Assembly: GCA_002050235.1 (NCBI GenBank)
Contig: MWST01000043.1
Coordinates: 124,001 to 188,000, forward strand
Length of the DNA: 64,000 nucleotides
Reading direction: 5' to 3'
From: Polyangiaceae bacterium UTPRO1
Lineage (GTDB): Bacteria > Desulfobacterota > Binatia > UTPRO1
The position numbers and the translations under genes were made by a program. A model generated the notes under the pieces. It was not told the DNA's origin. It saw only the letters and a program-made list of their open reading frames with translations, and searched no databases. Numbering within the stretch: the first letter of the stretch is position 1; every line of letters begins with the position of its first letter. This document shows positions 5,783-49,965 of this stretch, in pieces.

Positions 5783-7818
5783 GGCTCGTTGCCGCCGCCG
5801 GCATCGTAGAGGCGGCGATAGCGGCGATAATTGGCGAGCACCTGCTTCACGTAGTGGCGGGTCTCGCGGTAGCTGATCGTCTCCACGAACTCGTCGCTCG
5901 CCGCTCCGGGCGCGCGCTGCTCCCATTTGGCGACCGCTGCTTCGCCGCCGTTGTACGCCGCCAGCGCCTTTGCGAGGTCGGCGTCGTAGCGGTCGAGCAG
6001 TTGTCGCAGATAGCGGGCGCCCAGGGTGATATTGGTCGTCGAGTCGAAGAGCGCCGTCGCATCGATCGGCCGCCCGGCGACGCGTGACGCCGTCGGCATC
6101 AACAGCTGCATCAGTCCGTACGCCGCCGCGACCGAGACGGCCGTGCGCTCGAAGAGGCTCTCCTGGCGCATGACCGCCAGCACGACGTAGGGGTCGAGCC
6201 GCGCATCGTTTGCCGCCCGAACGACGCTCGACCAGTAGGCGCGGGGAAACTGGTAGGCGGCCAACGTCGATGCCGGGAGGCTCGACTGCAGGCGCTGCGC
6301 GAGCCGGAGCGCACGGCCCGGAGCCTCGACGTTGCTGTATGCGGCGAGCGCGAACGACTGGCCCGGGTCGCCGTCGGGAAGCTCGCGGACGAGCGCGCCG
6401 ATCTCCCGCGTCGCAGCGTCGTTCATCCCCATTGCGCCGAGCTCGCGGCTGCGCTCCCAGTGGTAGGCGTGCAGCGTCGTCACGGCCGCCGGTGGGGTGG
6501 CGTCGATGGGCGCCGCCGGCGGCGGCGCCGCCGCCGTGATTCCGAGCGCGCGCTCGGCGAGGTCGGCGTAATAGCTTTCGGGCGCGTCGACCAGGACGCT
6601 TGCGAACGCTTGTCGGCTCTCCTCTGCGCGCCCCTGCCGGGCGAAGATGCGTCCGCGCCAGTACGCTGCCGCGACGCGATCCTTGTCGTCGCCGGCGCCG
6701 AGCGCGGCGAAGGCCTTCGCGGCGGCTTCGAGGTCGCCCCGCCGATATGGCGCCCAGGCGAGCCGCCAGCGCGCCTCGCGGGCGAGCTCTCCGGTGTCGG
6801 CGGCGAGCGCCCGAAGCAAGGCGTCGGCCTCTTCCGGGCGGCCCTCCTGCTCGGCGATTCGCGCCAGGGCATAGCGTGCAGCGTCGTATTTCGGATGGCG
6901 TGGACTCTCGGCGACGATCTGGGAGAAGAGAGCGCGCGCATCGGCGTCGCGGTCGCGGTTCCAGTAGAGGCTTGCGAGCTCGAAGCGCGCCATGCCGCCG
7001 CTCGGCGTGAGGTCGATGGCTCGCCTGTAGGCGGCGATGGCGTCGTCGATTCGTCCGGCTTGCTTCTCGACCCGGGCGAGCGCTTCGAGCGCCACGACGC
7101 GCTCGCCGCCGGCAGCGCCGGCGGCTGCCGTCCGCAGGCGCACGGTAGCGAGGTCGAGGCGGCCTTCGGCGGTGAGCACACGGCCCTCGGCGAGCATGAG
7201 GTCGGGCTCCCGGAGCAGCTCCGGATGCGCGGCCTCGAGGCGCGCGCCGGCGTCGCGGGCGGCTGCGGCCGCGTTGCCGCCGCCGCTCCGCACTTCTTGG
7301 TAGAGCACGTACGCTCCGCGCGGGTCGGTCTCCGCGCGCAGCGATGCCAGAACTCCGAGAGCGCTGCCGCGGGCGTCGGCGTCGTCGCCGGCGAGGTCGC
7401 GGGCGCGCTCGGCGAGCTCGGCGGTGCGCGCATCGCCGAGCGCCAAGGCGGTGCGCGCCCGGCGCGCGGCAGCGGCCGCTGCCCAGACGCTCGCCGCCTG
7501 CGTTTGCAGCAGGCGGTCGTCGAGCGCCGCCGCTTCCGAGAGATCCCGGGTGCGCTCGGCGATCGCCGCGAGATAGTTGAGGTGGTAGTCCGCGAGCACC
7601 GGGTAGACGGCGAGAAGCGAGCGAAAGAGCGGCCGCGCCTCGTCGAGCGCGCCGCGCTCGTAGCGGGCAACGGCGTCGAGGAATGTTGCGCGGACCGCGC
7701 CGACCTCGTACGCACGGGCTGCTCGCGACGGCGGACGCGCCGTCGTCGCCGCGCAGCCGCCGATCAGGAGCGCAGCGAGCAGCGCCATGTTCACCGCACG
7801 GACCCCAACCACGCCCAT
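5680..7818 (-). CDS. Soluble lytic murein transglycosylase, TPR-containing lipoprotein
   Basis: About 712 residues. The N-terminus has a lipoprotein signal peptide (ALLAALLIGGC lipobox), a long middle of TPR/superhelical repeats, and a C-terminal SLT domain with the catalytic glutamate in MRQESLFERTAV, then GLMQLLMPTA and YNGGEAAVAKW. It cleaves the MurNAc-GlcNAc bond to give anhydro-muropeptides, the substrates of the recycling enzymes encoded convergently. The start is uncertain: ATG 7818 gives a short basic n-region, ATG 7788 would also leave a signal peptide. The protein ends in a low-complexity Pro/Ser/Ala tail of about 35 residues that is encoded antisense to the end of mpl. Confidence 0.9.
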   Translation of the reverse strand: MGVVGVRAVNMALLAALLIGGCAATTARPPSRAARAYEVGAVRATFLDAVARYERGALDEARPLFRSLLAVYPVLADYHLNYLAAIAERTRDLSEAAALDDRLLQTQAASVWAAAAAARRARTALALGDARTAELAERARDLAGDDADARGSALGVLASLRAETDPRGAYVLYQEVRSGGGNAAAAARDAGARLEAAHPELLREPDLMLAEGRVLTAEGRLDLATVRLRTAAAGAAGGERVVALEALARVEKQAGRIDDAIAAYRRAIDLTPSGGMARFELASLYWNRDRDADARALFSQIVAESPRHPKYDAARYALARIAEQEGRPEEADALLRALAADTGELAREARWRLAWAPYRRGDLEAAAKAFAALGAGDDKDRVAAAYWRGRIFARQGRAEESRQAFASVLVDAPESYYADLAERALGITAAAPPPAAPIDATPPAAVTTLHAYHWERSRELGAMGMNDAATREIGALVRELPDGDPGQSFALAAYSNVEAPGRALRLAQRLQSSLPASTLAAYQFPRAYWSSVVRAANDARLDPYVVLAVMRQESLFERTAVSVAAAYGLMQLLMPTASRVAGRPIDATALFDSTTNITLGARYLRQLLDRYDADLAKALAAYNGGEAAVAKWEQRAPGAASDEFVETISYRETRHYVKQVLANYRRYRRLYDAGGGNEPQDAGGSPSADTSFPASPPNPPFDISTTTSPDAA

Positions 7819-7902
7819 GGACTGTCGGCTATCGCGCGTTCCGGAACAGCGCAACGGCGGCGCCGCCTTGACTCCCAGGGGTAGCTTGGGCACGAGGGCG
7901 CG

Positions 7903-8487
7903 ATGTCGGAGTCGGCGCTGCCCGCATTCGTGCTCGCGTCCGCGTCGCCGCGGCGGCGCTGGCTCCTCGCAAAACTCGGGTTGGAGTTCGCCGTCGACGC
8001 CCCCGAGCTTCCCGAGATCCCCGGTGCCGGTGAGGCTCCGGACGCGTTCGCGGTACGCATGGCGGAAGCGAAGGCGGTCGAGGTGGCAGGTCGCCGGGAC
8101 GATGCCTGGATCCTCGCCGCCGACACCGTCGTCACGCTCGATATGAGAGTGCTCGGAAAGCCCAAGGACGCGGCAGAGGCGGCGCGCATGTTGACCGACC
8201 TCGCGGGCCGCCGGCACGTCGTCTACAGCGGCGTGGCACTGTTGGCGCCCGGCGGTGCGCGCGCCGAGAGCGCAGTCGTTGGTACGTCCGTCGTCTTTCG
8301 CAGCCTGACGCGCGAGGAGATCGATGCCTACATCGCGACCGGTGAGCCGTTCGATCGCGCCGGGGCGTATGCGATCCAGGGCGAGGGCGCCCATCTCGTC
8401 GATCGTGTGGAAGGCTCGTACACCAATGTCATCGGATTGCCGCTGCCGGAAGTGGCGGCGTGGCTCAGGCGATGGCGGATTCTCTGA
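7903..8487 (+). CDS. maf: Maf-type nucleotide pyrophosphatase (septum formation inhibitor family)
   Basis: 194 residues, normal family length. Maf proteins hydrolyse non-canonical or modified nucleoside triphosphates to monophosphates. Recognisable motifs are LASASPRRRWLL at the N-terminus, ILAADTVVTLDMRVLGKP in the middle, and GAYAIQGEGAHLVDRVEGS followed by NVIGLPL near the C-terminus. It is the first gene of a tight run (maf, yggS, proC, yggT, yggU) that is conserved in gene order in many bacteria. The next gene starts inside its 3' end. Confidence 0.95.
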   Translation: MSESALPAFVLASASPRRRWLLAKLGLEFAVDAPELPEIPGAGEAPDAFAVRMAEAKAVEVAGRRDDAWILAADTVVTLDMRVLGKPKDAAEAARMLTDLAGRRHVVYSGVALLAPGGARAESAVVGTSVVFRSLTREEIDAYIATGEPFDRAGAYAIQGEGAHLVDRVEGSYTNVIGLPLPEVAAWLRRWRIL

Positions 8488-38895: not shown

Positions 38896-39753
38896 CTACG
38901 GCGCGTCCCTGCGACGGCCGGCCTCCGCGATGTCCATGTGCCGCAGCAGGATCCAATCGCGGAGCGCTGCGGGCAGGACGTTGTTGAGCGCGAGGAAGAG
39001 CCGGCTGGTGAAGTCGATCTGGGTGTAGACTCTCGGGCGCGGGCTCAGGATCACTTCGACGTATTTCGCCGCAGCGCGATCGGGGTCGGGAGCGGACGCG
39101 ATCAGCTCGTTGTCGCGCACGATGAAGCGCCGCACCCGGTCGCGATACGGCGAGCCCTCCGGCGGCAGCTTGTGGATCTTGGCGGCGAAGCCCGTAGATA
39201 CCTGCGCCGGCTCGATGAGCGCCACCTCGATGCCGAAGGGCGCGAGCTCGTACTTGAAGGACAGCACCATGCCGTTCAGCGCGAACTTGGTCGCCGAGTA
39301 GATGGACTCGAAGGGAAAGGGAATGCGCCCGACCAGCGACGAGACGGCGACGAGCTTGCCGGCGCGGCGTTCGCGCATGGACGGTATGAACGCCTGGAAC
39401 ACGGCGGCGGCGCCGATCACGTTGATCTCGAAGCACTTGAGCGCGGCGTCGAGATCGAGCTCCTCGAAGGGGCCGAAGAAACCGACGCCGACGTTGGAAA
39501 CGACCGTGTCGACGTGGCCGAACCGCGCCAGGACGGCGTCCTTGAAGTGCATGATCGCCGTCCGGTCGGTGATGTCGATGCAGCGGAGATGGTGCCTGGC
39601 GCCGAGCGCGTCGAGCTCGCGTCCGAGCGACGTGATCCCCTCGGCGTCGACATCGAAGCCGGCGACGGCGGCGCCGCGCTTGGCCAGCAAGAGCGCGGCC
39701 CTTCGCCCCATACCCTGTCCGAGCCCGGTGATGACGACGTGCTGCGCTTCCAT
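38896..39753 (-). CDS. Short-chain dehydrogenase/reductase
   Basis: 285 residues, classical SDR: VVITGLGQGMGRRAALLLA, VVSNVGVGFFGPF, SSLVGRIPFPFESIYSATK (catalytic Ser, Tyr, Lys) and IEPAQVSTGF. The C-terminus (FLALNNVLPAALRDWILL) is hydrophobic and may touch membrane lipids. The substrate is unknown. It follows an epimerase gene on the same strand with 65 bases between. Confidence 0.88.
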   Translation of the reverse strand: MEAQHVVITGLGQGMGRRAALLLAKRGAAVAGFDVDAEGITSLGRELDALGARHHLRCIDITDRTAIMHFKDAVLARFGHVDTVVSNVGVGFFGPFEELDLDAALKCFEINVIGAAAVFQAFIPSMRERRAGKLVAVSSLVGRIPFPFESIYSATKFALNGMVLSFKYELAPFGIEVALIEPAQVSTGFAAKIHKLPPEGSPYRDRVRRFIVRDNELIASAPDPDRAAAKYVEVILSPRPRVYTQIDFTSRLFLALNNVLPAALRDWILLRHMDIAEAGRRRDAP

Positions 39754-39818: not shown

Positions 39819-40793
39819 TCAGCCCTCTGTCGCCATCGTGGCGAGCGACGCCTCGAAATCGGGGAACCGGAGCGCGAATCCCGTAGCCTCGATCTTGGAC
39901 GCGTCGACGACGTAGTCGTCGCGGAGATAGCGAACCGCGTCCGACTCGAGCTCGGGAATCGCGCCGCGGTAAGCGGCGATGACGCCCTGGAGGCGCGCGA
40001 GCACGGTGAGGACGACGAGCGGCACGTGCAGGCGCGGCGGCGTTCCGCCGAACACCTCGGCCGCGAGCGTCAGCGCCCTGCCGAGCGTCGGCTGCGAGGC
40101 GTCGGCGATGTTGAAAGCCTGTCCGATGGCTGCGGGCGTCTCCGCAAGATGCACGAGAGCGCGGGCGACGTCCTCCACGCGCACGTTGGCGAGCTTCTGC
40201 CGGCCGCAGCCGGGGATCGCGGGAATCGACGTGCGCCGCGAAAAGGCCTTTCCCGCGCCTTCGGTGCACCCGGGGCCGTACACGGTACAGGGACGGCAGA
40301 CGATGGCGGGCAGGCCGCGGTCGACGGCGCGCCACACGACGGCCTCGCCGGCCCGTTTGCTGCGGCCGTAGTCGTCCTGCGGCTCCTGCGGGCTTTCCTC
40401 GGTGAATGGCGTCCCGCGGTAGCGCCCGTAGACGCTCGTCGAGCTCACGTGCACGAAGCAGCGGACGCCGTGCGCGAGGGCGAGCTCGGTCATGCGCTCC
40501 ACGGCGACGACGTTGATCGGATGGAGCTTGGCGTACGGCGTCGAGAAATTGCAGACGGCGCCGAGGTGGAAGACGCGGTCGACGTCGCCCGCGAAGAGCG
40601 GCGGGAGCGACTCCGCCCGCGTCAGGTCGGCGGCAACGTACTCGACGCCGAGCGCGTCGAAGAGCTCCCGGTTGCCGTCGGCGCGATCGGAGGCGCGCAC
40701 CGCCGTGCCCCGGGCGTGCAGCAACCGCACCAGATGGCGGCCGACGAAGCCGGCGGCGCCGGTGACGAGAGTGGTGCCGCCGGTGCGTGTCAC
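39819..40793 (-). CDS. NAD-dependent epimerase/dehydratase family protein
   Basis: About 324 residues from GTG 40793 (GAGGG upstream); an ATG at 40832 inside trxB is an alternative. TLVTGAAGFVGRHLVRLL is the extended-SDR NAD site, VFHLGAVCNFSTPY and SSTSVYGRYRGTPFTEE follow, and DDYGRSKRAGE holds the catalytic Tyr-Lys. It resembles 3-beta-hydroxysteroid dehydrogenase or dihydroflavonol-reductase-like enzymes rather than sugar epimerases. It is the last gene of the trxB operon by position, 10 bases after the trxB stop. Confidence 0.88.
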   Translation of the reverse strand: MTRTGGTTLVTGAAGFVGRHLVRLLHARGTAVRASDRADGNRELFDALGVEYVAADLTRAESLPPLFAGDVDRVFHLGAVCNFSTPYAKLHPINVVAVERMTELALAHGVRCFVHVSSTSVYGRYRGTPFTEESPQEPQDDYGRSKRAGEAVVWRAVDRGLPAIVCRPCTVYGPGCTEGAGKAFSRRTSIPAIPGCGRQKLANVRVEDVARALVHLAETPAAIGQAFNIADASQPTLGRALTLAAEVFGGTPPRLHVPLVVLTVLARLQGVIAAYRGAIPELESDAVRYLRDDYVVDASKIEATGFALRFPDFEASLATMATEG

Positions 40794-40803
40794 GGATCGG
40801 CCC

Positions 40804-41784
40804 TCAGTGGGTCTCGAGATAGCGCTGGGCATCGAGCGCCGCCTCGCAGCCGGAAGCCGCCGCCGTTACCGCCTGGCGGTAGCGCGCGTCGACCAGATCG
40901 CCGCACGCGAAGACTCCCGGCACGTTGGTTTCCCGGCTGCCGGGACGGCAGACGATGTAGCCGCGCGCGTCGGTCTCCACCACGCCGCGCACCAACGTCG
41001 AGCTGGGCGTATGGCCGATAGCGACGAAGGCGCCCGCGCTGGCGATGATTTCGCTGGCGCCGTCGGTAACGCGGCGTACACGCGTGGCGCCGAGCTTGCC
41101 GTCGTCGCCGGCGACGAAGCCCTCGACGACGTACGGGGTCAGCACCCGGATCTTCGCCGAGGCGAGGACGCGCTCCCGCATGATCGGTGAGGCGGCGAAT
41201 GCCGCACGCCGATGCACGAGGACTACGGAACGCGCGTGGCGCGCCAGCCCGAGCGCTTCCTCCATGGCGGAATCGCCGCCGCCGATCACGATCGTGTCGC
41301 GGCCCGCGTAGAGCGGCGCCTCGCAGACGGCGCAGTAGGCTACGCCCCGGCCGCCGCCGAGCTCCCGCTCCCCCGGCACTCCGAGGGTGCGGGGCGCCGC
41401 TCCCATCGCGAGTATGACGGCCCGCGCCGCGATCTCGCGTCCGTCGGCCCACAGGCGATGCGGCGCTCCCGCTGCCGTTGCGAAGGCTACGCGATCGACC
41501 AGCCGGGTGAGGAAGCGCGTGCCGAAGCGCTCGGCTTGGGCGCGGAGATCGGCCATGAGCGCGGGTCCGAGTACTCCCTGCGGATAGCCCGGGAAGTTCT
41601 CGACCAGCTCGGTCGTCTGCAGGAGGCCGCCCGGCGCCAGCCCCTCGACGACCAGCGGGCGGAAGGCGGCGCGGCCCGCATAGAGCGCGGCCGTGTAGCC
41701 CGCCGGGCCGCTGCCGACGATGACGACGTCCTCGACGGCGCGCACTTCGGAATCGGGGGCCGCGACATTGGCCCAGATGCTCAC
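40804..41784 (-). CDS. trxB: Thioredoxin reductase
   Basis: About 326 residues of low-Mr TrxR: FAD motif VVIVGSGPAGYTAALYAGRA, redox pair Cys151/Cys154 in VAYCAVCEAPLY (usual CATC), NADPH motif VIGGGDSAMEEAL, and the closing FACGDLVDARYRQAVTAAASGCEAALDA region. It reduces thioredoxin or a thioredoxin-like partner with NADPH. GTG 41784 starts four bases after the stop of the DGLPVVPPT protein. No thioredoxin gene is present in the window, so the nearby CGSC protein is an attractive substrate. Confidence 0.93.
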   Translation of the reverse strand: MSIWANVAAPDSEVRAVEDVVIVGSGPAGYTAALYAGRAAFRPLVVEGLAPGGLLQTTELVENFPGYPQGVLGPALMADLRAQAERFGTRFLTRLVDRVAFATAAGAPHRLWADGREIAARAVILAMGAAPRTLGVPGERELGGGRGVAYCAVCEAPLYAGRDTIVIGGGDSAMEEALGLARHARSVVLVHRRAAFAASPIMRERVLASAKIRVLTPYVVEGFVAGDDGKLGATRVRRVTDGASEIIASAGAFVAIGHTPSSTLVRGVVETDARGYIVCRPGSRETNVPGVFACGDLVDARYRQAVTAAASGCEAALDAQRYLETH

Positions 41785-41788
41785 CCGG

Positions 41789-42937
41789 TCACTCCGCGGC
41801 CGTCGACCACGTGCTGCTGGCCAGCGCCGGCGCGATCTGTATGCGCCCGGGTTCCTCGCGCCCGACGCGGCACGTCTGGCTGTATGTAGCCCCGAAGGTC
41901 GGGAGCCATGCCGAGTGCTTTCCGGCGCCGCCGGCGACCAGGATCCGGATGTCCTCGGGGGCCCGCGCCACCGGAATCCGCCCGCCGAACTCGTCGAGAA
42001 GCTTCTTGTAGCCGCCCCACGTGCTCGCCTCATCGAGTTTCTTCTTGCCGATGCGATCGACGGCGACGCGCGCGTGCTCGAAGAGGTACGCCTGCGCCGC
42101 CGGTCGCGAGAAGCCGCTCTTCGCGATCACCTCGGCGTGCTCGGGCCCCAGAACCACGAACTGGTCGCCGCCGCGGTAGACCGTGTTGGCGCCGGGCGTC
42201 GCCATCGTCTCGGCGATGGTGAAGAGGATCTCTTCGCCGGAGTCCGACTGATGGTCATTGATGTTGTGAGGTCCCTCGACGGCGGCGACGGTCACGGCGC
42301 TGTCCTCCGGCGACAGGCCCACCGACACCCGGAACGGCTCCCAGGGGCTTCGCGCTTCGTTCTCGGCGAAGCAGAAAGTCCACTTTGCCGGCGTGCCCTG
42401 CGTGGCGCGGTCGATCGCGCTCTCGCTGTCGCCGTCACCCGGACGGGCGCCGCCGACGTTCATCATCACCAAGCGCACCGCGCGCCCGATCGTGCCGTTG
42501 GCGCGGTTGCCCTGTCCCATGCAGCCGGCGCCCGCGTTCATGCCGGCCTCGGCGGCCGCCGGCCCGTGCACGAGCACCATGAGCGCGCACGGGTGGGTCG
42601 TCATCTGCATGCCGTAAAGGTTGAAGATCGGTACGTTCATCGCCGTGACGGCTGCCTCGAGGATGGGCATGTAGGCCGGGAGGCAGCCCGCCATGACCGC
42701 ATTGGCCGCGAGCTGTCGCACCGAGAGCGGGGCGCCGCGCGGCGCGATCGCGCCGAGGCAATGCTCGGCGTCGTGGAGGGCGGCGGCGCAGAACCGCGCC
42801 ACGCGCTCGCGGGTAGGCGGTACGACCGGTAGGCCGTCGGTCCACCCCCAGGCATAGAGCTGCTCGGCGACGAGCGCGTCGTCGCCGTCGAGGGCGATCT
42901 CCTGCTGGTCCGATCCCGGCCGAGGGAGCGCGCTCAT
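41789..42937 (-). CDS. Companion protein of the UGSC/CGSC system (DGLPVVPPT motif)
   Basis: 382 residues, cytoplasmic, without a signal peptide. The N-terminal GWTDGLPVVPPTRERV (about 31-46) and AANAVMAGCLPAYMPILEAA are strongly conserved-looking segments that I recall in genomic company with UGSC seleno-family proteins. A cysteine-containing stretch MTTHPCALMVLVHGP and a GAGCMGQGNRANGTIGRAVRLV glycine-rich region follow. No known cofactor fold can be named. The ATG overlaps the stop of the CGSC gene (ATGA) and the gene leads into trxB, so the three are one unit. Confidence 0.75.
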   Translation of the reverse strand: MSALPRPGSDQQEIALDGDDALVAEQLYAWGWTDGLPVVPPTRERVARFCAAALHDAEHCLGAIAPRGAPLSVRQLAANAVMAGCLPAYMPILEAAVTAMNVPIFNLYGMQMTTHPCALMVLVHGPAAAEAGMNAGAGCMGQGNRANGTIGRAVRLVMMNVGGARPGDGDSESAIDRATQGTPAKWTFCFAENEARSPWEPFRVSVGLSPEDSAVTVAAVEGPHNINDHQSDSGEEILFTIAETMATPGANTVYRGGDQFVVLGPEHAEVIAKSGFSRPAAQAYLFEHARVAVDRIGKKKLDEASTWGGYKKLLDEFGGRIPVARAPEDIRILVAGGAGKHSAWLPTFGATYSQTCRVGREEPGRIQIAPALASSTWSTAAE

Positions 42938-43494
42938 TGCGCCACCGTCGACTGCAGCTCCGCCGGCGCGCCGGTGAGCGCGATGACGACCTGATCGATA
43001 GTCGCGGCCACGACCTTGGCCTTGGCGGTCTCGGGCGGAATGCCGCCGACGGGATGCTCGACGACCGACAGCCCGAGATCGTCGGCGCCCTTGATGGCGA
43101 GAACCTGGCGCGAGAAGGCGTCGAATTGATCGCTCGCCATGCCGCACACCGCCAGACCGCGCTGTGAGAGCTCCACCATGTCGGCGCAGGCCCACGACGC
43201 GCACGAGCCGCAGTCGAGCATCGCGACCACGGCCGCCGTGCAGTCGCGGGCGATCTCGTCGAGCATGGCTTCGTCGGCGCCGATCGACGGCACCCGCTTC
43301 ACGTAGAGGCGCGGCGTGATGGCGAAGCGCGCCATCAGCCCCTCGGCGACGCCTTCGAGGATCTTGTCGGCGTTCATCTTGCTGTTGCTCAAGAAGCCGA
43401 CCGTCCGGCCCTGCAGGTTTGCCACCGCGGCACGCGGCGTGCGCCGGAGCGGAACCTCTCCGCTCGTCGGATTGACGATGACCATCCGTTCCAT
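42934..43494 (-). CDS. UGSC-family protein, cysteine (CGSC) form
   Basis: 186 residues. The redox-like motif is MLDCGSCASWACAD with Cys95 and Cys98 (both TGC codons); in relatives the first position is selenocysteine (UGSC). The rest of the fold looks alpha/beta (TVGFLSNSKMNADKILEGV, VVEHPVGGIPPETAKAKV). The motif placement suggests a thiol-disulfide or reductase centre. It is the first gene of the operon with the DGLPVVPPT protein and trxB, and divergent from an acyl-CoA dehydrogenase operon across a 70-base AT-rich gap. The substrate is unknown to me. Confidence 0.78.
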   Translation of the reverse strand: MERMVIVNPTSGEVPLRRTPRAAVANLQGRTVGFLSNSKMNADKILEGVAEGLMARFAITPRLYVKRVPSIGADEAMLDEIARDCTAAVVAMLDCGSCASWACADMVELSQRGLAVCGMASDQFDAFSRQVLAIKGADDLGLSVVEHPVGGIPPETAKAKVVAATIDQVVIALTGAPAELQSTVAQ

Positions 43495-43564: not shown

Positions 43565-44731
43565 ATGGACTTCCGCCTGACCGACGAGCAACAGCAGCTG
43601 CAGGACACGGTACGCGCCTTCGCCGACCGCGAGTGCGCACCGCTCGCTGCGGCGTGGGATCGTGAGAACCGCGTCCCCGACCATGAGTTCGAGGAGAAAC
43701 TCATCGGCCTGGGGCTCTATGGGATGACGCTCCCCGAACGCTGGGGCGGCGGCGGTCGCGAATTGCTCGACGCGGTCCTGGTGATCGAGCAGCTGGCGCG
43801 CGTCTCGCCGCTCTGCGCCGCCGGCGTGTTCGAGAGCAGCGTCGGGCCGGTCCGCGTCATCGAGCGGTTCGGCAGCGAGGAGCAGCAGGCCCGCTGGCTC
43901 CCGAAAGTGTGCCGCGGCGAGACCGAGATCTCGATCGGCATGAGCGAGCCCGAAGCCGGCAGCGCCCTCACCGATCTGCGCACTACGGCGGAGAAGGTCT
44001 CGGGCGGATACCGGCTGAACGGGGTCAAGGCGTGGTGCACCGGCGGCGGCCACAGCCGCGCCTACCTCGTCTACTGCCGGATGAACGATCGGCCGGGGCC
44101 GAAGGGCATCGCCGGGCTCCTGGTCGAGAAGGGCACGCCCGGGTTCACTTTCGGCCCCCAGGAGCGCTACCTTGGCCTGCGCGGTTTTCCGAGCAGCGCG
44201 CTCTACTTCGCGGATTGCGTCGTCCCGGAGGAGAATCTCGTCATCCAGCCCGGGGGCTTCGCCTCCCTCATGGACTGCTTCAACATCGAGCGCTGCGGCA
44301 ACGCGACGATGGCGCTCGGCATCGCCGCCGGCGCGCTCGAGGTGGCGACGAGCTACGCGCGCGAACGGCGCACCTTCGGCCGGCCGATCTGCGAGCGCGG
44401 CGTCGTCCAGGAGATGATCGCCGACATGGCCACCCGCGTAGACGCTGCGCGCTTGCTCGTCTACCGCGCCGCGGCCAATGCCGGCACGGGCCTCGCCGGT
44501 ATGAAGGAGACCTCGATGGCGAAGCTTTTCGCCAACGAGACCGCGAAGCACGTCACCGACAAGGCGATGGAGATCCTCGGGGCCGTCGGCTACAGCGCCG
44601 AGTATCCGATCGAGCGCATGCTGCGCGACAGCCGCGGCTGGCCGATCGCCGGCGGCACGCTGCAGATCCAGCGGCTGATCATCGCCTCTGCCGTCTTCGG
44701 GCGACGCTTCGACCAGCGGCTGCCGAGCTGA
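43565..44731 (+). CDS. Acyl-CoA dehydrogenase, isovaleryl/long-chain type
   Basis: 388 residues. All ACAD regions are present (FRLTDEQQQLQDTVRAFA, SIGMSEPEAGSALTDLRTTA, ARERRTFGRPICERGVVQ). The YEGT catalytic glutamate position reads IAGGT (361-365), but a glutamate at 242 (FNIERCG) fits the alternative base position on helix G used by isovaleryl-CoA and long-chain dehydrogenases. So it should be active on branched or long acyl-CoA. First gene of an operon with SDR, acyl-CoA ligase and MarR genes. Confidence 0.93.
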   Translation: MDFRLTDEQQQLQDTVRAFADRECAPLAAAWDRENRVPDHEFEEKLIGLGLYGMTLPERWGGGGRELLDAVLVIEQLARVSPLCAAGVFESSVGPVRVIERFGSEEQQARWLPKVCRGETEISIGMSEPEAGSALTDLRTTAEKVSGGYRLNGVKAWCTGGGHSRAYLVYCRMNDRPGPKGIAGLLVEKGTPGFTFGPQERYLGLRGFPSSALYFADCVVPEENLVIQPGGFASLMDCFNIERCGNATMALGIAAGALEVATSYARERRTFGRPICERGVVQEMIADMATRVDAARLLVYRAAANAGTGLAGMKETSMAKLFANETAKHVTDKAMEILGAVGYSAEYPIERMLRDSRGWPIAGGTLQIQRLIIASAVFGRRFDQRLPS

Positions 44732-47337: not shown

Positions 47338-47796
47338 ATGACGACCAAGACGACCGCCAGCAAGCGAGCACGAACTCCCGACGACACCCACGCGCGCGCC
47401 ATGATGCGCCTCATCCATCAGGTGACCGCCGGGCATCCCGAGCGGACGACGCTCGATCTCAACGTCCGCCAGCGCCTCGTCATCCAATCGCTCGGCATCG
47501 CCGGCAGCCGGCCGATCGCGGCGATCGGCCAGCAACTCGGCCTCACCCCGTCGACGATGACCGGGTTGGTGGATCGGCTCGAAGAGCAGGGGTACCTCCG
47601 CCGTGAGGCACATCCCTCGGACCGGCGCGCGACCGTGCTGCGGCTCACGCCCAAGGGCGAGACGGCATTCCGCCGCGAGGTGGAATTCTATCGTGCGCTC
47701 GTAGACGAGACGCTGGCGGCGCTCGGCGATGACGCCAAGGCGCTCGTGCTCGCTGCGCTCGACTGCCTGGGCCGCAGCAAGCCGGCCGCCGCCTAG
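47338..47796 (+). CDS. MarR-family transcriptional regulator
   Basis: 152 residues. The winged helix is clear: ALG-type SRPIAAIGQQLGLTPSTMTGLVDRLEEQGYLRREAHPSDRRATVLRLTPKG is the MarR recognition helix and wing. Its location eight bases after the ligase gene suggests it regulates this operon, perhaps responding to an acyl or aromatic ligand. A palindrome at 43524 is a possible target. Confidence 0.93.
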   Translation: MTTKTTASKRARTPDDTHARAMMRLIHQVTAGHPERTTLDLNVRQRLVIQSLGIAGSRPIAAIGQQLGLTPSTMTGLVDRLEEQGYLRREAHPSDRRATVLRLTPKGETAFRREVEFYRALVDETLAALGDDAKALVLAALDCLGRSKPAAA

Positions 47797-47809: not shown

Positions 47810-48385
47810 GTGGACGACACCGTGCGCATCACCCGCCGCGGGCTTCTGCGTGCGGGTCTGCTCGGCTCGGCGCTCCTCTGGGCCGGCGGCCAGATCGGCT
47901 GCGGCGGACGTCACGCCGCCTCGCGGCCCGCCGCCGGCAGCGGCGAGCGTCAGGCCTTGACGCCGGCGGGCGAAGCGATCCTCGGCGCCGTGATCCCCGT
48001 CGTGCTCGGTTCGCTGCTGCCCGGCGACGAGAAGGAGCGCCGACGGGTTCTGGCCATCGGGCTCGACACCATCGACAGGTACCTCGCCTTCCTGCCCGAG
48101 GCTCTCCAGCGCGAGGCCGGCGACGCTTTCGCTACCCTCGATCTCTTGCCGGCCCGCGTGCTGCTGGTCGGCACCTGGCGCCCCTGGAGCGAGACGCCGC
48201 CTGCTACCGTCGCCGCCTTCCTGCGTTCGGCGCGATCGAGTCGCTTCGATCTGGTACGCCGGATCTTCGTGTTCCTGCAGTCGCTGGCGGTCCTGGCGTG
48301 GTTCGATCAACGCGCAGCGTGGCCCGCGATCGGGTATCCCGGGCCTCCGGTCGAACGGACGTCGGCGAACTGGAGCCTCGAATGA
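47810..48385 (+). CDS. Tat-exported small subunit for the GMC oxidoreductase
   Basis: 191 residues from GTG 47810 (GGGAG upstream). ITRRGLLRAGLLGSALLWAGG is a twin-arginine signal with a cysteine (IGCGG) that may be lipidated. The rest resembles small subunits of membrane-bound gluconate/sugar dehydrogenases (helical, EAILGAVIPVVLGSLLPG, IFVFLQSLAVLAWF). The downstream GMC subunit lacks a signal peptide, so it may be exported with this one. The stop overlaps the GMC start. Confidence 0.82.
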   Translation: MDDTVRITRRGLLRAGLLGSALLWAGGQIGCGGRHAASRPAAGSGERQALTPAGEAILGAVIPVVLGSLLPGDEKERRRVLAIGLDTIDRYLAFLPEALQREAGDAFATLDLLPARVLLVGTWRPWSETPPATVAAFLRSARSSRFDLVRRIFVFLQSLAVLAWFDQRAAWPAIGYPGPPVERTSANWSLE

Positions 48386-49965
48386 GCGCCCGCACGATCC
48401 TCACCGGCAATACGCTCGACACCGACCGCGTCCTCGAGGGCGACGTCGCGATCATCGGCTCGGGCGCCGGCGGCGCGATCAGCGCCGACGTCCTCGCGCG
48501 CGCGGGGCTGCGGGTGGTCGTGGTCGAGGAAGGCGCCTATCGCACGCCGGCGGATTTCGTCCCTCGCGAGATTCCGGCCTTCGCCGAGCTCTACGTCGAA
48601 GGCGGTGTCCGCTTGACGCGCGACGGCAGCATCGGCGTCGTCCAAGGCCGCACCGTCGGCGGCTCCACGGCGGTCAACTGGACCAGCAGCTTTCGCACTC
48701 CCGAGCCCACGCTGCGTTACTGGCGCGAAGTCCTCGGCATCACCGGCCTCTCCGCCGCCGAGCTGGCGCCGTGGTTCGAGCTGATCGAGAAGCGGCTGCA
48801 CATCGCCCCCTGGGAGACCCCGAACCCCAACAATCAGCTCCTCGCCCGCGGCGCCGCCAAGCTCGGCTGGCACCACGGCCCCATCCGCCGCAATGTCTCG
48901 GGGTGCGCCAATCTCGGCTACTGCGGCCTCGGCTGCCCGACGGGCGCCAAGCAGAGCATGGACGTCACCGCGATCCCCGACGCGCTCGATCACGGAGCGG
49001 TGTTGGTCACGCGCGTCCGCGCCGACCGGCTCCGGCTGCGCGCCGACCGGGTGACCGCGGTCGAATGCCTCGCGCTCGACGAGCGTGGCGTGAAGCCCAC
49101 CGGACGGCGGGTGACGCTGCGAGCGCCGTGGGTGATCGCTGCCGGCGCCGCCATCAATACCCCGGGGCTGCTCCTGCGCTCCGACGTGCCCGACCCGCAC
49201 CGGCTCGTCGGCAAGCGCACCTTCCTCCAGACCCACAACTATTCGCTCGCCTTCATGCCCGAGATCGTCGACCCGTTCTTCGGCGCCCAGCAGTCCGTCT
49301 ATGTCGACGAGTTCACCTGGCGCGACGGTGTCGACGGGCGCGCGGGCTTCAATATGGAAGCCGCGGGTGCGCAGCCGGTCGTCAGCATGCACGCATGGAA
49401 CGGCATCGGTACCGAGCTCGCCGACTTCGCGCGCCGCCTGCCGCACCTTCATACCCTGGTCTCACAGATCCGCGACGGCTTCGCGCCCGACAGTCGGGGA
49501 GGCGAAGTGCGGCTCCGCGGCGACGGGAGTCCGGTGCTCGACTATCCGATCACCGATTTCGTCTGGGACGGGGTGCGGCGATCGTACTTGGCGATGGCCG
49601 AGTGCCAGTTCGCAGCCGGCGCCGAAAGCGTGCACCCCGCGTGCAGCGATGCGCGCGCGTACCGCAGCTGGGCCGAGGCGCGGCGCGAGATCGGCACTCT
49701 CCGCCTACGGCCGCTGAACGTCTACCTGAACTCGACCCATCCCCTCGGCGGCTGCCCCATGGGCCCCGATCCGCGCACTGCCGTCGTCGGCATCGACTGC
49801 CGCCATCACCACCTCGCCAATCTCGCAGTCATCGACGGCTCGATCGTACCCACGAGCCTCGGCGTCAACCCGTCGCTGACGATCTACGCTCTGGCGGCGC
49901 GCGCCGCCACCGGGCTCGCCGAGCGCATCGGCGGCGCCGGCGCCGCGGGCGCCTCGCCCGGGTGA
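48382..49965 (+). CDS. GMC-family FAD oxidoreductase
   Basis: 527 residues. FAD motif VAIIGSGAGGAISADVLA, GRTVGGSTAVNWTS, a cysteine-rich GCANLGYCGLGCPTGAKQS stretch, and the catalytic-region THPLGGCPMG and VNPSLTIYALAARAATGL. GMC enzymes oxidise alcohols, sterols or sugars; the four-cysteine segment suggests an iron-sulfur or structural site as in some glucose/fructose dehydrogenase relatives. Pairs with the Tat subunit upstream. Confidence 0.92.
   Translation: MSARTILTGNTLDTDRVLEGDVAIIGSGAGGAISADVLARAGLRVVVVEEGAYRTPADFVPREIPAFAELYVEGGVRLTRDGSIGVVQGRTVGGSTAVNWTSSFRTPEPTLRYWREVLGITGLSAAELAPWFELIEKRLHIAPWETPNPNNQLLARGAAKLGWHHGPIRRNVSGCANLGYCGLGCPTGAKQSMDVTAIPDALDHGAVLVTRVRADRLRLRADRVTAVECLALDERGVKPTGRRVTLRAPWVIAAGAAINTPGLLLRSDVPDPHRLVGKRTFLQTHNYSLAFMPEIVDPFFGAQQSVYVDEFTWRDGVDGRAGFNMEAAGAQPVVSMHAWNGIGTELADFARRLPHLHTLVSQIRDGFAPDSRGGEVRLRGDGSPVLDYPITDFVWDGVRRSYLAMAECQFAAGAESVHPACSDARAYRSWAEARREIGTLRLRPLNVYLNSTHPLGGCPMGPDPRTAVVGIDCRHHHLANLAVIDGSIVPTSLGVNPSLTIYALAARAATGLAERIGGAGAAGASPG

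Follow-up and report, generated by a model that had tools for sequence, protein, structure and literature searches.

Do a cysteine-containing member of the UGSC family, a protein without a family model and a thioredoxin reductase (TrxR)-type flavoprotein, encoded side by side on the minus strand of the window (the whole 64-kb stretch of DNA analysed here), share one function, and do their genes form a unit? The initial annotation read them as a three-gene redox operon with an NADPH-TrxR-CGSC electron path, in which the protein carrying the motif DGLPVVPPT (hereafter DGLP) was the partner. The features of the locus are as follows.

42934..43494, minus strand: UGSC-family gene in the Cys form (186 aa; PF24696), proposed catalytic half
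43201..43212, minus strand: codons of the active site C95-G-S-C98, where most relatives have selenocysteine (Sec, TGA)
41789..42937, minus strand: DGLP gene (382 aa), near-obligate partner domain, without Pfam or NCBIfam model
42812..42838, minus strand: DGLPVVPPT motif, DGLP residues 34-42, with conservation across 57 homologues
40804..41784, minus strand: TrxR-type flavoprotein gene, apparently a dedicated paralogue (TIGR01292 311 bits; CAVC, GGGDSA, HRR)
41323..41334, minus strand: redox motif CAVC of the window TrxR
39819..40793, minus strand: NAD-dependent epimerase / 3beta-HSD-like extended short-chain dehydrogenase (SDR) gene (PF01370), next in the apparent operon
38896..39753, minus strand: SDR gene (PF00106), last in the apparent operon
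43565..44731, plus strand: acyl-CoA dehydrogenase gene, divergent, conserved neighbour (67% identical in L068, a locus of the same-class genome G174)
47338..47796, plus strand: MarR-family regulator gene, conserved neighbour (78% identical in L068)
48298..49965, plus strand: GMC oxidoreductase gene, conserved neighbour (71% identical in L068)

The coordinates agree with the initial description of three tightly packed minus-strand genes: an ATGA overlap joins the UGSC stop to the DGLP gene, and the TrxR gene starts with GTG 4 bases (CCGG) past the DGLP stop. An operon of only three genes, as had been claimed, is not what the locus contains, since the epimerase-like gene (GTG start at 40793, 10 bp past TrxR) and the SDR gene after it continue the run, so that UGSC, DGLP and TrxR are three of the five genes of an apparent operon. 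The 70-bp divergent gap showed neither an inverted repeat of at least 8 bases nor a sigma-70-like site.

The UGSC and DGLP genes were searched for separately in 297 genomes of the same phylum, and the same 30 genomes were found to hold both, while the two extra genomes in the DGLP search gave weak, partial matches only. In the collected regions, DGLP lies within 2.5 kb and on the same strand of 154 of the 156 UGSC genes, and UGSC lies near 165 of the 172 DGLP genes, five of the remaining DGLP genes being at contig ends; these regions are biased in that they were picked for holding one of the two genes, whereas the 297-genome searches are free of that bias. The two are thus regularly linked, as the reading of the initial annotation supposed. 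A DGLP profile scan of 85,000 species genomes gave at least 584 confirmed relatives, yet the family has no Pfam or NCBIfam model, and the 80 DGLP loci kept from these relatives cover at least 11 named phyla, three of the loci being archaeal. Culturable carriers of a UGSC-DGLP pair include Parapusillimonas granuli, Vineibacter terrae and Natrialba asiatica. The order of the two genes varies, and natural fusions are common. One such fusion, L132, was modelled with a pLDDT of 91 and a pTM of 0.91, and the model suggests a fixed arrangement of the UGSC and DGLP domains. UGSC and DGLP therefore appear to be two halves of one enzyme.

Considering the UGSC half, the window protein scores 119.5 bits against PF24696 (gathering score 25) and is thus a member of the Pfam family, but it has the Cys form and its 90.9 bits against NF041046 are under the equivalog cut-off of 125, which makes it a divergent member. 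C95/C98, H147-P148 and F124 are intact, and C98 is invariant in the 27 members aligned. TGA occupies the first Cys position in most relatives, in line with the CGSC centre at Cys95/98 and the selenocysteine of relatives noted initially. The CGSC form was found in the window genome and in G092, neither of which has SelB above cut-off, while SelB is above cut-off in 23 of the 30 UGSC genomes; the association of the CGSC form with the absence of SelB is no more than suggestive, considering the 89% completeness of the window genome and the lack of a SelB above cut-off in five TGA-bearing genomes as well. Parsimony on the DGLP tree (FastTree, approximate) gives at least six changes of the Sec/Cys state. 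In the UGSC gene of Blastococcus, an in-frame TAG takes the place of the Sec codon (L130:9681-9683), matching the UAG-coded Sec of Geodermatophilaceae, in which a UAG-coded UGSC has been reported (PMC5330540). A Nitrospinota UGSC (L199:728-1231) reads U-G-S-S-T, with Ser in place of the resolving Cys. Both Sec and Cys are lost in the UGSC paralogues L083:7079-7579, L106:5864-6367 and 7742-8245, L120:6001-6504 and L170:8032-8544, which are fused to or adjoin DGLP in paralogue-rich genomes; these are possibly pseudo-enzymes or regulators.

The predicted UGSC fold consists of alternating beta-alpha units and is Rossmann-like, with C at a helix start, and its weak fold matches are of the flavodoxin / lumazine-synthase type (E above 2e-3). 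A thioredoxin fold, proposed for UGSC in 2008 (PMC2398784), was rejected since the predicted alternating beta-alpha fold disagrees with it. In the PDB, no solved structure related by sequence to UGSC or GrdB was found.

When the GrdB profile was extended by read-through past the Sec codon and compared with UGSC profiles by hhalign, the matches were 94.3% (E 1e-7) and 93.8%, the E-values being those of single comparisons, while comparisons with unrelated profiles gave 0.1-0.5%. A few UGSC loci whose strand had been misassigned were left out of the profile. The alignment places CGSC on the UGTC of GrdB, and two later motifs are common to both, E..G(I/V)P and, C-terminally, HP(L/V)G. TIGR01917 (glycine reductase selenoprotein B) matches 8 of the 27 UGSC members, the best at 1.2e-5, and the PrdB model TIGR04483 likewise matches 8 of 27; the GrdF and GrdH models were also matched. 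The Pfam GRDB model PF07355 has no match to the window UGSC protein or anywhere in its own genome, and as this model stops just short of Sec, the kinship of UGSC to GrdB is probably hidden from Pfam. By profile comparison, UGSC is a remote homologue of the Sec/Cys active-site domain of GrdB/PrdB, which is a more specific assignment than a generic redox CGSC protein.

GrdB and PrdB are B subunits of the glycine, sarcosine, betaine and D-proline reductases. Their Sec is understood to attack a carbon beside an activated carbonyl or imine, and thiols then re-reduce the site. They carry the same UxxC/CxxC site in their C-terminal domain as UGSC, and the two also share HP(L/V)G and the exchange of Sec and Cys; substrate-specific paralogues and electron supply by TrxR/Trx are further likenesses, the latter suggested on the UGSC side by the TrxR linkage of its genes. 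Unlike GrdB/PrdB, UGSC has only about 170 residues, is unmatched by PF07355 and is partnered by DGLP in place of GrdE/PrdA; the GrdE/PrdA proprotein partner PF09338 was not found in the window's own genome. Whereas glycine reductase uses GrdA, GrdA is missing in the window genome and in 27 of the 30 genomes with UGSC. Also in contrast with GrdB/PrdB, UGSC occurs in haloarchaea, Mycobacterium and Sphingomonas and is therefore not confined to fermentative anaerobes.

The DGLP half, described initially as an unnamed protein with DGLPVVPPT, is just that: the window protein has no Pfam, NCBIfam or PDB sequence match, and none was consistent across homologues. Its conserved domain is about 330 residues long. 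D34, G35, A83, G84, G125, N147, G151, R152 and E192 are invariant among 57 homologues, the motif residues L36, P37, P41 and T42 are 94-98% conserved, and T113 and T114 are conserved too. The model of the window protein (pLDDT 88.7) has class I fumarate hydratase (6unz and others) as its best PDB fold match, which is non-significant (TM-score 0.26, E 1.4e-3), and assignment as a class I fumarase was rejected because sequence-profile similarity is lacking despite this top match. Homology to GrdE/PrdA (PF09338) was likewise rejected for want of profile similarity, so that there is no sign of a pyruvoyl group. DGLP is a candidate for the substrate-binding half. Tandem duplicated DGLP genes stand behind a single UGSC gene in L136, L137, L138, L140, L141, L160 and L183, and perhaps encode a heteromeric partner.

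The flavoprotein had been called a standard TrxR. Its CxxC (CAVC) and NADPH-binding motif (GGGDSA, HRR) agree with this, but its 311 bits against TIGR01292 are under the equivalog cut-off of 343, marking it as a close TrxR-type paralogue, and Ala in place of the third Arg of HRRxxxR makes its cofactor uncertain. No thioredoxin gene was seen in the examined parts of the 64-kb window, as annotated initially, although one does occur elsewhere in the genome. Since a canonical TrxR (389 bits) is also found elsewhere, the copy in the window is an additional paralogue and looks dedicated.

Counting the window, 10 of about 140 regions have a TrxR-type gene near UGSC-DGLP. These linked genes all lie on the same strand as the pair, seven of them within 100 bp, and a search of 2.2 Mb of flanking DNA at E 1e-20 found no others, where by our estimate, taking three per genome, about two scattered ones would be expected by chance. 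On the DGLP tree, the TrxR linkage shows at least seven state changes (parsimony; FastTree, approximate), and TrxR has joined UGSC-DGLP in several independent lineages. The three genes are also adjacent in L103, L130, L135, L137, L141 and L160, CxxC is kept in the linked proteins inspected, and 7 of 172 DGLP proteins carry a fused Trx-like domain. The published chain NADPH-TrxR-Trx-GrdA-GrdB is a precedent for such an electron supply (PMC3091704). The recurrent linkage thus fits the proposed NADPH-TrxR-CGSC path with a DGLP partner, but TrxR is not a regular member of these loci. The alphaproteobacterial TrxR-type proteins of L135, L137, L141 and L160 keep CxxC and lack the NADPH motif (GxGxxA/HRR), so their electron donor may differ.

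In L068, the order UGSC-DGLP-epimerase-SDR is kept without TrxR, which indicates that the three-gene set is not an evolutionary unit. The divergent MarR, acyl-CoA dehydrogenase and GMC oxidoreductase genes are retained there, and the cluster proteins are 61-78% identical to those of the window (epimerase 61%, SDR 65%). Elsewhere, the commonest neighbours of the pair resemble tripartite-carboxylate binding proteins, CaiB CoA-transferases, SDRs, enoyl-CoA hydratases, acyl-CoA synthetases and dehydrogenases, and PrpD; these names were read by eye from the sequences outside the window, Pfam being used in the window only. The transport, CoA-transferase and acyl-CoA neighbours, together with the synteny of L068, point to catabolism, and the up to 11 or more UGSC paralogues per genome point to many substrates.

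With modest confidence, we lean towards reading UGSC-DGLP as a heteromeric GrdB/PrdB-like reductase in a catabolic cluster, here in the Cys form and with its own TrxR paralogue. The computations show that UGSC and DGLP are near-obligately paired and can be fused, that UGSC is remotely homologous to GrdB/PrdB, that Sec and Cys replace each other, that TrxR linkage recurs and that the context is catabolic, and from these we infer the chemistry, the binding of substrate by DGLP, and the path and direction of the electrons. The reaction is probably a reductive C-X cleavage as in GrdB/PrdB. DGLP would bind and position a small substrate whose activated position adjoins a carbonyl, and the nucleophile of UGSC, which is Cys95 in the window protein and Sec in most relatives, would attack the carbon and expel the heteroatom group. 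Cys98 would then resolve the thioether or selenoether to give a C95-C98 disulfide (or selenide-sulfide), and NADPH would restore the dithiol via TrxR, directly or through thioredoxin. The pair may serve the catabolic cluster of extended SDR, SDR, acyl-CoA dehydrogenase, GMC oxidase and MarR, in which neighbouring SDR or GMC enzymes perhaps first create the ketone for UGSC-DGLP. The GrdB/PrdB-like reading is weakened by the absence of TrxR near most pairs, by the UGSC paralogues without both Sec and Cys, and by the four linked TrxR-type proteins without the NADPH motif.

A thiol or seleno peroxidase or detoxification enzyme, reduced by TrxR and serving protection rather than nutrient breakdown, is an unlikely alternative: TrxR and Trx-like/AhpC-type fusions are typical of peroxidase systems, and GrdB itself is reported to have peroxidase activity, according to a title cited in PMC3091704, but the pair sits among catabolic genes and transporters, has many diverged paralogues within one genome and has a modelled fold that is not peroxiredoxin-like. 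Non-redox catalysis by the Cys pair (a lyase, transferase or thioesterase acting via a covalent thioether or thioester), for which TrxR would only repair accidental oxidation, accords with the many pairs, syntenic L068 among them, that have no TrxR nearby and with the paralogues that have lost both residues; we consider it quite unlikely, since UxxC, in which a Cys follows Sec at a distance of three residues, is a redox hallmark, this Cys is invariant in the aligned members, and the linkage to TrxR and Trx is repeated. That NADPH, TrxR, the CGSC protein and DGLP form a fixed three-gene electron module seems highly improbable despite the tight packing in the window and the six further loci with the set adjacent, and is refuted as such by the absence of TrxR from over 90% of loci and from L068, where the epimerase and SDR remain. 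A window TrxR that belongs to general thiol metabolism and stands beside the pair by chance is hardly credible, even though TrxR genes are common and the linkage concerns a minority of loci, because every TrxR-type gene in the 2.2 Mb of flanks is same-strand and close, the linkage changed repeatedly on the DGLP tree, and the genome has its canonical TrxR elsewhere.

Extending the GrdB/PrdB-like reading, we suggest tentatively that UGSC-DGLP could be a large class of reductive C-X cleaving enzymes of aerobic and anaerobic prokaryotes, combining the active-site domain of GrdB, in reduced form, with a novel fold for substrate binding, needing neither a pyruvoyl group nor GrdA, and diversified by paralogy for many substrates, where here alcohol oxidation by SDR/GMC enzymes would make the activating ketone. 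The GrdBE-like FarBE, a proposed monofluoroacetate dehalogenase that would cleave C-F, resembles this in that reductive C-X cleavage of a non-amino-acid is proposed for a GrdB-type Sec subunit, but differs in having a GrdE-type partner and in coming from anaerobic Synergistota (PMC10838667).

The initial annotation regarded the system as a candidate for an undescribed one, which is only partly so. The Global Ocean Sampling selenoproteome of 2008 describes a fusion of UGSC with a conserved domain of unknown nature (UGSC/Unknown_1), which is probably DGLP, and proposes a limited occurrence of UGSC along with the Trx-like fold (PMC2398784). UGSC is among the most abundant marine selenoproteins, at 8.2% of selenoprotein genes (PMC9402790), and a 2026 review lists UGSC proteins without function (PMC13188914). 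The UGSC family, its Sec/Cys forms, the 2008 fusion and UAG-coded UGSC are thus already known, while three points were not found in the literature searched and appear to be new: the GrdB/PrdB kinship, the near-obligate partnership with DGLP across phyla and the repeated occurrence of a TrxR operon. With UGSC tied to the active site of glycine/proline reductase and to a near-obligate partner, its function becomes a matter for an assay of two proteins, for which an electron donor is predicted. Short GRDB/PrdB-like proteins with Sec, about 180-230 aa long (L211-L234), are also widespread in the same phylum, mostly in genomes without the PF09338 partner, and are possibly another uncharacterised GrdB-like group.
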